From NCBI RefSeq assembly GCF_001647285.1, contig NZ_LRML01000007.1, positions 186,001 to 250,000 of the forward strand: a DNA stretch of 64,000 bases. Reading direction: 5' to 3'. The translations under genes were made by a program, and so were the position numbers. The notes beneath the pieces were generated by a model, which saw only the letters and a program-made list of their open reading frames with translations, made no database searches and was not told where the DNA came from. The DNA is from Rufibacter roseus (GTDB taxonomy: Bacteria > Bacteroidota > Bacteroidia > Cytophagales > Hymenobacteraceae). Positions within the stretch are counted from its first letter, which is position 1; each line of letters begins with the position of its first letter. Shown in pieces: positions 20,661 to 23,092 of the stretch.

Positions 20661-21044
20661 TTAGGCTTTCTTCATCAGCTTCAGGAACTCCAATTCCGTT
20701 TTCATCAGGTTGGTAAGGGCAGTAGCCGTCTTGTTGATCTGCGAGGCCTGAGGCACATAGTCTTTGTCTTTCTGCACCTTTTCCAGCGTCTCCATAAGCA
20801 CACCCCTAATCTGGCCTAATGCGTTTGTCTGGGGCATTACCTGTATCTCTGCGCGCGTTTCATCTGTTGGCAGGAAAAGCTGAAGCCGGCTTGGCAAATC
20901 GTCTTCTAAAAGAAAGATGTCTTTGTGGTCCGTCTTTATCCGAACACCCCTTTCCTCAGGTATAAAACCTTTGATGGCATACACTTCTTTGCAGTACATG
21001 TAGGACTTGCCCACCATCTGCGCTATTTTCTCTAATCCTTTCAT
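20661..21044 (-). CDS. Phage early-region protein, possible regulator
   Basis: A 127-residue protein, MKGLEKIAQMVGKSYMYCKEVYAI and so on. The first 60 residues could contain a small HTH (KIAQMVGKSYMYCKEV). The C-terminal half is helical (LGQIRGVLMETLEKVQKDKD, KTATALTNLMKTELEFLKLM), as in DNA-binding or structural adaptor proteins. No specific family is recognised. It overlaps the HNH gene by 4 bases. Confidence 0.5.
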   Translation of the reverse strand: MKGLEKIAQMVGKSYMYCKEVYAIKGFIPEERGVRIKTDHKDIFLLEDDLPSRLQLFLPTDETRAEIQVMPQTNALGQIRGVLMETLEKVQKDKDYVPQASQINKTATALTNLMKTELEFLKLMKKA

Positions 21045-21772
21045 TGCGCCTGTTTTTTAAGTTCTCGCTTCAGTTTCATGTTAAGTCTGGCTACTTCCAG
21101 CAGCTCAGGTTGCTTTTTGACTTCCTCTTTCAGGTGCGGCTCCTTCATCGTGATCATGGTGGCCACGTAGTTGTCGCTTAGGTTATGGAAGGGGCCGTTC
21201 AGGTAGGCTTTCTCGGGGTTGTGGTTCAGCCTCGCGTGTTCCGCCCTATTGACAGGGTACCAGTTGGAGGGGGCGGTATTGGTCTGGTCTCCGTCTCTGC
21301 AGCGCAGCATCATCCCCTTTGGGATAGGTCCGTTCTCCGCTTCCCACAGCAGGCGGTGCTCATGCACCCACTTCCCCTTTGCCACCCTGACATGCACGTA
21401 GCTTATTCCGTTTTTGTCTTTGCGGATAGACCTGTCGCCATCCTTTTTGGTGTTGTGGGGTTTGTTGCCTTTCTGAAACTGCCCCTTGCCCCCGCTCAGG
21501 TCAAGCCCTTTCATTCCCTTGTTCCAAGCAGGCTGGCCTTTCTTGAATCTGGTCACCCCGCCTCTTTGGTGGTCTTTTGACAGTCTCCCTGACAGGGGGC
21601 TGCTCAGGTACTCCTCGCTTTTCTTCAGCTCCATTGACGCCGCCTTGTTGTACACGCTGCTTAAAGGGCGGCGAAGGTGTTGGGCTATCTTCTCGGTGGG
21701 CTGGTTGGGGTAATGCTCAACCAGATAGGAGACCGCCGCATCAGTCCAAATCATTTTCTTTCTCTTGCTCAT
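21041..21772 (-). CDS. HNH endonuclease with N-terminal HTH and NUMOD-like part
   Basis: A 243-residue protein. Residues 6-50 look like a SANT/Myb-type HTH (WTDAAVSYLVEHYPNQP, LRRPLSSVYNKAASM). Residues 75-120 carry NUMOD-like repeats (FKKGQPAWNKGMKG, QFQKGNKPHN). The nuclease core is VHEHRLLWEAENGPIPKGMML (about 146-166) and CRDGDQTNTAPSNWYPVNRAEH. This is the HNH_3 type used by homing endonucleases and phage nucleases. It may be a free-standing homing gene or participate in packaging/replication. The 32-base overlap with the following small gene is unusual. Confidence 0.85.
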   Translation of the reverse strand: MSKRKKMIWTDAAVSYLVEHYPNQPTEKIAQHLRRPLSSVYNKAASMELKKSEEYLSSPLSGRLSKDHQRGGVTRFKKGQPAWNKGMKGLDLSGGKGQFQKGNKPHNTKKDGDRSIRKDKNGISYVHVRVAKGKWVHEHRLLWEAENGPIPKGMMLRCRDGDQTNTAPSNWYPVNRAEHARLNHNPEKAYLNGPFHNLSDNYVATMITMKEPHLKEEVKKQPELLEVARLNMKLKRELKKQAQ

Positions 21773-21962
21773 ACTCTTCCATGTAAGGGTGTCCGTCTAA
21801 TCCTTGGTAGCCTTTCACGGCAGCTTGCCGCTTTGCCATCTCCAGCCCCTTCAGCACGCCGATCTTAAGCCAGTTGTAGTGATATTGGGCTGGATCTAGA
21901 GTTGGGTATTCGTTGCGCAGTTCCTCTAAGGCCTGCTCCAGTGGGCTTTTTGGGGTGGTCAT
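21741..21962 (-). CDS. Small hypothetical phage protein
   Basis: A 73-residue protein from MTTPKSPLEQALEELRNEYP, whose ATG overlaps the dcm stop (ATGA). It is mostly helical and acidic, with a central AQYHYNWLKIGVLKGLEMAKRQ. The frame is open farther upstream inside dcm, but the coupled ATG is the better start. No family is recognised. Confidence 0.55.
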   Translation of the reverse strand: MTTPKSPLEQALEELRNEYPTLDPAQYHYNWLKIGVLKGLEMAKRQAAVKGYQGLDGHPYMEEYEQEKENDLD

Positions 21963-23092
21963 GAGGCTTGGCTTAGTTGGTTGATTGCTTTGAATATCTG
22001 GTAGGCCACCTGGGGCACTATGGCGTTTCCCCCTGCTTTGATGGATTCGTTTCGCCACTTAGAAAAGGTAATTCCGTCCAATCCGGTGGGAAGCCCATCA
22101 TCTCCAGAACAAACCGGGGGTTGAGTTGGGAAGTCTTGCCAGTAATTGCCCGGGCTCTCTTTGTTAGGCTGCCCTGATTCTCCAGTCCCGTAACCTTCTC
22201 CCCGCAATCCGATGCCATTGGTGTTGGTAGTAGTGGCGCCAAACTGTTGAGATCTATTGACCACCCCTTCTCCATCTTCCTGTTGAAATTCCCGCTTTCC
22301 GGCTTGTCGGGTGAGCGCCAATCCCTTGCCTGTGGGGTCGGCAATAATTCTGGTTGCCTCACTACCACATCCCTGAGATTGCTCAACTGTGTTCGCCCTG
22401 GCCTTGTCACCGTCATTTCCTTCAGGATGGCTTTGTCTGTCTTGGGTGCCATGCTGTCCATTGTGGTAGATGTGGGCAGTAGCCACATCTTGGCAGCAGT
22501 GGCTACATTTATTCCCCACTCTTTCCCGTTCGCAGCTATCACATTCATTCCCTTGCAGCCTATTGCAGATTCGCTCCTGTCTATCTCGGTTGCTCTTGGA
22601 GTAGGCCACAAACCATACCCTGTCCCTTCGGTGCGGGGCGTTGACGGCGCAAGCTGGAAGAACATACGGTTGTACTTCGTACCCCTCAGCTTCCAGGTCA
22701 GCCTGCACTTCGTGGAATACCAGCCCTCCATTCCAATTAATAAGGCCGAAAACGTTCTCGCCCACGACCCATGTTGGCTGAATTTCCCGAATTGCTCTAA
22801 GCATTTCCGGCCAGAGGTGGCGGTCATCTTCCTTTCCGAGCCGCTTACCTGCGAGGGAGTATGGCTGGCAGGGGAACCCCCCTGTGAGCACATCAATGGC
22901 TCCTCGGTGAACAGTGAAGTCTGTCTTGGTAATATCTGTGTAGCTTGTAGCATTAGGCCAATAATGTTTTAGTATCTTCTGTCCGAACTCATTCCACTCG
23001 CAGTGAAAGACGTTCTCCCACCCCATCCACTCAGCGGCTAAGTCAAAGCCGCCTATACCTGAGAAGAGGCTACCGTGTGTCATTCCGCTCAT
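21959..23092 (-). CDS. dcm: DNA (cytosine-5-)-methyltransferase
   Basis: A 377-residue C5 methyltransferase. Motif I is LFSGIGGFDLA (residues 9-19), motif IV GGFPCQPYSLAGKR with the catalytic C75 (71-84), motif VI GENV (111-114), motif VIII APHRRDRVWFVA (152-163), and motif X GNAIVPQVAYQIF near 353-366. The region between VIII and X (about 165-340), which holds target recognition, is rich in polar residues and low in predicted structure. This is the part that also contains a nested ORF in the +1 frame. It is a solitary phage enzyme with no restriction partner next to it and probably protects against host restriction. The symbol is used in the generic sense. Confidence 0.93.
   Translation of the reverse strand: MSGMTHGSLFSGIGGFDLAAEWMGWENVFHCEWNEFGQKILKHYWPNATSYTDITKTDFTVHRGAIDVLTGGFPCQPYSLAGKRLGKEDDRHLWPEMLRAIREIQPTWVVGENVFGLINWNGGLVFHEVQADLEAEGYEVQPYVLPACAVNAPHRRDRVWFVAYSKSNRDRQERICNRLQGNECDSCERERVGNKCSHCCQDVATAHIYHNGQHGTQDRQSHPEGNDGDKARANTVEQSQGCGSEATRIIADPTGKGLALTRQAGKREFQQEDGEGVVNRSQQFGATTTNTNGIGLRGEGYGTGESGQPNKESPGNYWQDFPTQPPVCSGDDGLPTGLDGITFSKWRNESIKAGGNAIVPQVAYQIFKAINQLSQAS
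22018..22953 (-). CDS. Nested +1-frame ORF within dcm, LLPTP-repeat protein
   Basis: An uninterrupted 311-codon frame on the same strand as dcm, shifted by +1 and lying wholly inside it. It begins at an ATG and has GLWPTP at 114-119, LLPTS at 158-162, LLPTPQARD at 203-211, LLPTPMASD at 241-249, and LNPRFVLEMMGFPPDW at 277-292. Proteins with such LLPTPxAxD repeats and MMGFPxxWT endings are often annotated with phage methyltransferases. It may be an overprinted gene, or a recurrent shadow of conserved dcm motifs: GLWPTP is the +1 reading of the RDRVWFVA region. Expression is unproven. Confidence 0.35.
   Translation of the reverse strand: MLQATQILPRQTSLFTEEPLMCSQGGSPASHTPSQVSGSERKMTATSGRKCLEQFGKFSQHGSWARTFSALLIGMEGWYSTKCRLTWKLRGTKYNRMFFQLAPSTPRTEGTGYGLWPTPRATEIDRSESAIGCKGMNVIAANGKEWGINVATAAKMWLLPTSTTMDSMAPKTDKAILKEMTVTRPGRTQLSNLRDVVVRQPELLPTPQARDWRSPDKPESGNFNRKMEKGWSIDLNSLAPLLPTPMASDCGEKVTGLENQGSLTKRARAITGKTSQLNPRFVLEMMGFPPDWTELPFLSGETNPSKQGETP

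Follow-up and report, generated by a model that had tools for sequence, protein, structure and literature searches.

The dcm-frame gene described here, together with an open reading frame nested within it, very probably specifies a two-chain DNA (cytosine-5) methyltransferase, i.e., one stretch of DNA read in two frames, with the nested chain acting as the target-recognition subunit. Sequence comparison establishes a conserved second frame, selection acting in both frames, a motif IX on the nested chain and not on the dcm chain, and the exchange of units between nested genes. A wider reading, which we favor on balance and with clearly less assurance, would join the two methyltransferase halves in two frames and their recombining cassettes to a natural ribosomal stop hop in many sister genes. 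If the two-chain reading is true, two halves of one enzyme come from two frames, and recognition cassettes recombine while both frames stay open. This would explain the proteins collected as phrog_1008, would give phages a compact way to shift methylation specificity against restriction, and would provide natural material on how dual coding evolves.

A second reading frame within the methyltransferase gene

The window is a 64,000-nucleotide stretch of Rufibacter roseus DNA (contig NZ_LRML01000007.1). We refer to the dcm-frame product as alpha and to the product of the nested +1 frame as beta. The initial annotation had described a 311-codon, ATG-initiated ORF in the +1 frame of dcm; this ORF exists (22018-22953), the motifs quoted from it are present, and its translation contains LNPRFVLEMMGFPPDW and then continues to ...WTELPFLSGETNPSKQGETP. 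The initial annotation had drawn attention to the dcm stretch between motifs VIII and X; the ORF does cover that variable region, but it begins ahead of motif IV and spans motifs IV-VIII as well. The parts of the locus, from the start of each chain onward, are as follows.

21959..23092, minus strand: alpha, the dcm-frame C5-methyltransferase of 377 aa, with motifs I-VIII and X and without motif IX (PF00145 and M.HhaI matches)
22018..22953, minus strand: beta, the nested +1-frame ORF of 311 codons with an ATG start, proposed target-recognition subunit (phrog_1008, motif IX, dual-frame rates)
22868..22882, minus strand: alpha motif IV GGFPC, including the catalytic Cys; without a stop insert here, the site at which sister loci have the stop insert
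22639..22833, minus strand: conserved N-terminal domain of beta, residues 41-105, modeled as two helices and a beta hairpin (block pLDDT 57-81)
22610..22633, minus strand: alpha motif VIII HRRDRVWF
22480..22608, minus strand: beta unit 1, WPTPRATE..., its start lying on alpha motif VIII
22345..22479, minus strand: beta unit 2, LPTSTTMD..., 89% identity with the second of four units in locus L014
22231..22344, minus strand: beta unit 3, LPTPQARD..., 79% identity with units in L003 and L002
22132..22230, minus strand: beta unit 4, LPTPMASD..., 91% identity with the last unit of L015
22078..22131, minus strand: beta motif IX, residues 275-292, SQLNPRFVLEMMGFPPDW (profile score 15.2 bits, the top window of the protein)
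22022..22399, minus strand: alpha residues 232-357, predicted by the model to be unfolded (pLDDT <50); the same DNA also codes for beta from the end of unit 2 through units 3-4 and motif IX to the C-terminus
22007..22033, minus strand: alpha motif X GGNAIVPQV

The neighbors of dcm are replication-initiation, HNH endonuclease, and other phage-type genes, and the free-standing HNH endonuclease gene adjoins dcm on the same strand (window 21041-21772). An identical copy of the gene is found on a 43,859-base viral contig (L001), perhaps from the same genome as the window, and a search of the organism's own genome for beta returned a single place, the window locus. No clear Shine-Dalgarno sequence was seen ahead of the window beta ATG. 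By eye, two Paenibacillus phages have GGGAGG 12 bases before the ATG that is annotated as the nested start in one of them, phage Bloom.

A scan of IMG/VR with beta was used to collect relatives, and the best 80 of 171 were taken (L001-L080). In all 80, the nested match overlaps dcm in the same +1 register, with a best-segment identity of 38-56% (100% for L001), and in-frame stops within the matched stretches are confined to the last few codons. Synonymous-codon shuffles of dcm lead one to expect 5.57 nested stops per gene, and none were observed in 66 non-redundant loci, a test that is biased in that these loci had been pre-selected for an open nested frame of at least 200 codons. A fairer set, chosen without beta, consists of 51 loci fetched by a dcm motif-IV DNA pattern (33 of them non-redundant, and five on contigs already among L001-L080). 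Here, the nested frame is stop-free for at least 174 codons, or to the end of the read sequence, in 48 of 51 loci, early nested stops being found in L095, L110, and L114; many of the loci collected are near-duplicates, so that locus counts are not independent events. When 20 single-chain dcm genes from related genomes were read in the same frame from motif IV to motif X (taken from 29 loci, L229-L257, the remainder of which were not parsed by the rule), each held 6-32 stops. Genome G060 (L141-L143) has a dcm that is open over 295 codons and a nested frame broken into pieces, the longest of 157 codons, which makes this locus a candidate for loss of beta.

To follow selection in the two frames, each substitution was classed by its effect in both. 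The rate analysis drew on 110 of the 133 loci with a nested hit, i.e., those with complete frames and a nested ORF of at least 200 codons, and the initial 51 pairs were reduced to 44 by removing duplicates and pairs with L113, L121, or L129. Across the 44 pairs, dN/dS from motif VIII to the nested stop is 0.50 (0.45-0.56) for the nested frame versus 0.67 (0.62-0.74) for alpha, and over motifs IV-VIII it is 0.18 for alpha and 0.56 (0.50-0.62) for the nested frame. Past the nested stop, where alpha alone is coding, the nested measure is 0.74 (0.59-0.92); ahead of the CQP of motif IV, where beta covers part of the interval only, it is 0.75 (0.66-0.87). Divergence at dcm-synonymous changes is 0.45 in the variable region and 1.26 past the nested stop. 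In the variable region, 32 of 44 pairs show greater divergence at codon position 1 of alpha, which is the wobble position of the nested frame, than at position 3; over motifs IV-VIII, 1 of 44 pairs does. Taken together, the rates and the wobble pattern imply that coding in the variable region is led by the nested frame, with dcm as the passenger; the initial annotation had cast them the other way round. The comparison of constraint in both frames that it had proposed as a check does find purifying selection in the nested frame too, and in the variable region it is stronger there than in dcm.

These data also bear on the more cautious alternative offered at the outset, namely that the nested frame is a recurrent shadow, held open by dcm motifs and codon bias and giving no product. 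Unit 1 is what one would expect of a shadow, as its GLWPTP sits on the RVWFVA of dcm motif VIII, and genome G060, with an intact dcm and a broken nested frame, also fits. However, unit 1 is the only unit so placed: the others fall in stretches of weak dcm conservation, in which the nested frame is the better conserved of the two and its wobble position diverges fastest. The stops that single-chain dcm genes accumulate in this frame and the canonical spacing of the nested motif IX (see below) speak against a shadow as well. We consider this explanation scarcely credible and reject it on the dual-frame rates. The open frame in divergent relatives, purifying selection in two frames, and a dcm stretch predicted to be unfolded give strong support to the proposal of one DNA segment serving two proteins; judged from sequence, the nested frame is a real overlapping gene.

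Methyltransferase motifs on the two chains

Ordinary C5-methyltransferases, in the outline given by the cited paper, have a large catalytic domain with most of the motifs and a small domain made up of the variable recognition region and motif IX (PMC3404938). Alpha carries motif I, the catalytic PC of motif IV, the ENV of motif VI, motif VIII, and motif X. Its PF00145 match covers aa 5-176 only (2.8e-44), phmmer aligns it with M.HhaI residues 10-172, and its structural model superimposes on the M.HhaI fold over 168 columns (E 4.6e-13). Beyond the end of the PF00145 match at aa 176, neither motif IX nor a folded recognition domain was found on this chain. A motif IX profile reaches p<0.05 in 3 of 33 alpha C-parts, which is near chance, and between motifs VIII and X, where such a domain would lie, the model has residues 232-357 at pLDDT <50.

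The motif IX profile was built from the canonical windows of 18 of the 20 single-chain enzymes and applied to every second row, giving a test set of 39 of 78 betas, 33 alpha C-parts, and 33 +2 frames. All 39 betas score above their shuffles at p<0.05, compared to 3 of 33 for the +2 frame (near chance), and in 36 of 39 betas the top window is LNPxF...MGFPxxW; the assignment rests on a profile of 18 residues. In the window beta, SQLNPRFVLEMMGFPPDW has a spacing like that of canonical motif IX windows, e.g., RRLTPREMLRLQGFPDSY. The smaller chain of the window locus thus carries motif IX, and the larger chain motifs I-VIII and X. Two other loci divide the motifs differently. In L110, alpha terminates just past motif VIII, and the nested-frame ORF goes on with LNPDWCELLMGYP and a motif X, GNAVVPQ; in L116, motifs IX and X are likewise both on the nested chain, and the alpha frame ends without motif X. 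With both motifs on one nested chain, these two relatives make the link between this chain and methyltransferase motifs a direct one.

The AlphaFold2 model of beta is too poor for use (mean pLDDT 58.6, pTM 0.28), Foldseek of that model against the PDB gave no fold match (best E 1.1), and a beta profile had no hit among PDB sequences. Pfam and NCBIfam returned no C5-methyltransferase model for the window beta, nor did Pfam for six related betas, and hhalign of beta against single-chain C5-methyltransferases was not significant with a poorly chosen set of nine. The window beta does match phrog_1008, which is labeled DNA methyltransferase (6e-24 over residues 22-295). This is a profile of annotated phage ORFs with a label, and the search output gives neither mechanism nor nesting.

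One could therefore suppose that beta is a real protein but no methyltransferase subunit, e.g., an anti-restriction or regulatory protein whose gene happens to overlap dcm. The lack of any fold or family match besides phrog_1008, and an N-domain (residues 41-105) without a known relative in the searches made, would suit such a protein. We nevertheless regard it as unlikely, with motif IX absent from alpha and present in beta, with motif X on the nested chain in L110 and L116, and with no intact copy of beta found apart from dcm in the sets searched. The initial annotation had spoken of standalone-looking phage proteins annotated with the same motifs. It was right about the annotation, as phrog_1008 and the gene BLOOM_57 of Paenibacillus phage Bloom attest, but standalone status was not borne out in the sets searched: 225 of 237 nested-domain ORFs (223 loci, repeats included) overlap dcm in the exact +1 phase, and none do so in the other phase.

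The remaining 12 ORFs are partial matches, none of them an intact copy without dcm. The overlap test relied on alpha motifs IV-VIII only, and these 12 were checked individually. Six ORFs from four genes are in the dcm +1 frame (L110, L206, L213, and L141-L143, which are a single gene found three times), L168 is interrupted by masked bases, and L223 is a 70-residue motif-IX piece beside which no dcm motif was recognized. The others, L109, L113, L117, and L209, have frame changes in or before the variable region, with the motifs spread differently over the frames; these may be real changes, indels, or assembly errors.

A further alternative is that beta arises only joined to the N-terminal part of alpha, through ribosomal frameshifting, and not as a separate chain. 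Some loci do have a nested frame that is open well upstream of the conserved beta region. Frameshifting would not by itself yield the alpha C-part, however, which is conserved, and the window and many relatives have an ATG close to where the conserved beta region begins. A programmed frameshift as the sole source of beta is, in our judgment, very improbable for these reasons.

Exchange of nested units and relation to known enzymes

Between its N-domain and motif IX, beta consists of a row of LLPTP units. Unit parsing worked for 152 of 184 betas and yielded 458 units, 1-6 per beta and mostly 30-50 residues apart; N-flank anchoring worked for 136 betas. Among these 136, 757 pairs of units from different betas are at least 75% identical, and the N-flanks of the same betas are less than 60% identical in 187 of the pairs and less than 50% identical in 93. 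These flank counts are from the anchored set, since flank identities of 0.16-0.17 in a first parse look like parsing errors. Units adjoining a shared one were compared 1326 times and proved unrelated in 1093 of these comparisons, a count that parsing errors may affect, as they may the flank values of the window units. Unit 2 of the window is 89% identical to its counterpart in L014 and unit 4 is 91% identical to that in L015, with flanks sharing 65-67% (67% for the N-flanks of L014); unit 1 has no close relative among the parsed units. Members of the L004 group are almost the same over their first ~105 residues and at the motif IX end, with exchanged units in between. The biggest unit cluster (32 units) occurs at positions 2, 3, and 4 from the end, and units in the last position cluster separately, with 1 of 31 clusters mixing the two. 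This pattern indicates that LLPTP units are exchanged between phages like cassettes. Each unit would probably act as one DNA recognition module.

In the enzyme we propose, alpha would give the catalytic large domain, with SAM-binding motif I, the catalytic Cys of motif IV, motifs VI and VIII, and the terminal motif X, and beta would give the small domain, with its conserved N-domain, row of LLPTP units, and motif IX. Beta would be translated from its own start and dock on alpha, the two chains forming a complex in which beta supplies target recognition and its LLPTP units read the DNA targets. Unit swaps would then let a phage change or add methylation sites, and a prophage could mark its own DNA against host restriction. 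It is motif IX and the exchanged units that suggest this function for beta, which the initial annotation had left unnamed.

The closest known counterpart is M.EcoHK31I, whose small chain is encoded in an overlapping frame. M.EcoHK31I (YGGCCR) is described in the cited papers as a naturally split, two-polypeptide C5-methyltransferase, with motifs I-VIII and X on the larger chain and motif IX on the smaller (PMC3404938; PMC3439449), and its predicted recognition domain is placed in the larger chain (PMC3404938), a point that counts against our placement of recognition in beta. The window locus has the same division of motifs. As far as those descriptions go, it differs in that we place recognition in the smaller chain, the matching stretch of alpha being predicted to be mostly unfolded, and in that the nested chain bears a multi-unit array and occurs in phages or phage-like loci of several bacterial groups. 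We therefore view the window system as a likely variant of the M.EcoHK31I kind, in which the cassette array, an alpha without a predicted recognition fold, and the phage spread would be new. The split enzyme M.AquI (CYCGRG) is reported to be broken in the variable region, with motif IX on the second chain (PMC3404938). To judge by that report, the window resembles M.AquI in both respects and differs in having motif X on alpha and a second chain wholly inside alpha in another frame, whereas L110 and L116, whose second chain has IX as well as X, are closer to it.

Multispecific C5-methyltransferases are single chains, and unlike theirs, the modules seen here are in another frame. The cited study of those enzymes defined their recognition parts by domain swapping and gives a TL motif with the core P(STCA)PT(ILV)(TASV), 10-50 residues before motif IX (PMC2413257). 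Similar to that layout, as far as the study describes it, interchangeable units lie ahead of motif IX in beta, what is observed being the exchange of the units and not what they do. By eye, LPTPxAxD loosely resembles the TL motif, and the last copy in the window begins 35 residues ahead of LNP.

The family is rare in the phylum, with a match in 2 of 395 genomes, and phrog_1008 is matched in 3 of 59 relatives, both counts including the window's own genome. A phage collection gave 70 records with a match and a plasmid collection five, and the layout was read in a few of these. The same two-frame layout is present in Stenotrophomonas, Acinetobacter, Microcystis, and Paenibacillus phages, and in Paenibacillus phage Bloom the annotation lists BLOOM_56 and BLOOM_57 as methyltransferase genes that overlap. 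Our searches of openly licensed papers gave no description of this arrangement in phages. On one contig, L123 (3-2391), dcm is present in three tandem copies, all with a nested beta ORF of their own and one with a stop insert of the kind described below.

A stop codon ahead of the catalytic cysteine in sister genes

In six of the first 80 loci, all outside the window, a stop codon is inserted precisely at the junction of GGFP and the catalytic Cys in an otherwise intact dcm. Altogether, 57 stop loci were found, 38 of them non-redundant; the loci with a stop insert are listed here.

L014, L040, L042, L054, L070, L072; L085-L135; L258-L263: stop-insert loci on viral contigs, some contigs twice

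The insert has the layout CCN-stop-(NNN)-YYN-TGY. We searched with patterns that demand CQP(F/Y)xxAGK behind the insert and leave the inserted bases free. The pattern for any 6 bases returned 45 stretches, every one of which starts with a stop (TAA 30, TGA 11, TAG 4) and ends with YYN, and that for any 9 bases returned six, again all starting with a stop and ending with YYN; a 3-base pattern returned none. Four of the six 9-base inserts have double stops, two of these being alike (L259, L261). All 57 stop loci have YYN as the last insert codon, and none has TTN; in the 38 non-redundant loci this codon begins with CC (17), CT (14), or TC (7). The insert was not found in the 395 phylum genomes, where only TAA and TGA patterns were used, nor in loci L136-L257, so that we know of no example from a cultured organism. 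It is present in L110, at a site that beta does not reach, so beta does not explain it.

Codon choice around the insert is skewed. The codon upstream is GGC or GGG in 41 of 42 inserts versus 41 of 141 loci without an insert, where GGA leads at this position (78 of 141), and the codon that follows is TTC in 42 of 42 versus 90 of 141; the 42 inserts omit one chance match, L053. The skewed codons just upstream of the stop insert may possibly be a cis signal.

The simplest reading of the insert is a possible programmed ribosomal stop hop, which would restore GGFPCQ exactly; a stop at the front and YYN at the back are what such a hop would be expected to show. Peptidyl-tRNA-Pro would leave CCN while the stop codon occupies the A site, and the tRNA-Pro would land 6 or 9 bases on, at the YYN codon just before the catalytic Cys. 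YYN codons of this sort can pair with the GG of the proline anticodon with at most one G-U pair.

Other explanations account less well for these genes. Readthrough is judged unlikely in view of the double stops in four of six 9-base inserts, the lack of a 3-base insert, and the YYN codon in 57 of 57 loci. So is a restart of translation: in the 38 loci, no ATG, GTG, or TTG precedes the Cys in frame, and +2 ORFs at the landing codon run for a median of 15 codons. An altered genetic code is unlikely because all three stops are used. Gene decay is likewise unlikely, as alpha downstream of the stop has a dN/dS of 0.35 in 22 pairs, i.e., it is under purifying selection. One locus considered as a split gene, L264, proved to be a frame-changed dcm that lacks the stop insert.

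According to a 2016 review, 9 bases encode one residue in stop hops, in-frame bypassing has been reported with synthetic constructs in E. coli, and longer natural bypasses are known, e.g., in T4 gene 60, but no occurrences of natural in-frame stop hopping were known at that time (PMC5009743). The E. coli UGG proline tRNA is reported to be shift-prone (PMC4519876). We found no paper on stop hopping or recoding in this gene. If the reading is true, this would be a natural stop hop, and the stop insert would make in-frame ribosome hopping directly testable by reporter.

In the same review, the T4 gene 60 insert is said to stem possibly from an element protecting against a homing endonuclease (PMC5009743). 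An HNH-type zinc nuclease motif is found inside alpha in 6 of 57 stop loci versus 0 of 137 loci without a stop, as listed here.

L095, L108, L109, L113, L117, L129: HNH motif in the N-part of alpha, ahead of the stop insert

As a lead, this motif may hint at a homing-endonuclease history. Free-standing HNH-like genes are not clearly commoner near stop loci (3 of 38 versus 2 of 74, the first set having longer stretches). Among the other loci, L003 has a stop elsewhere in dcm.
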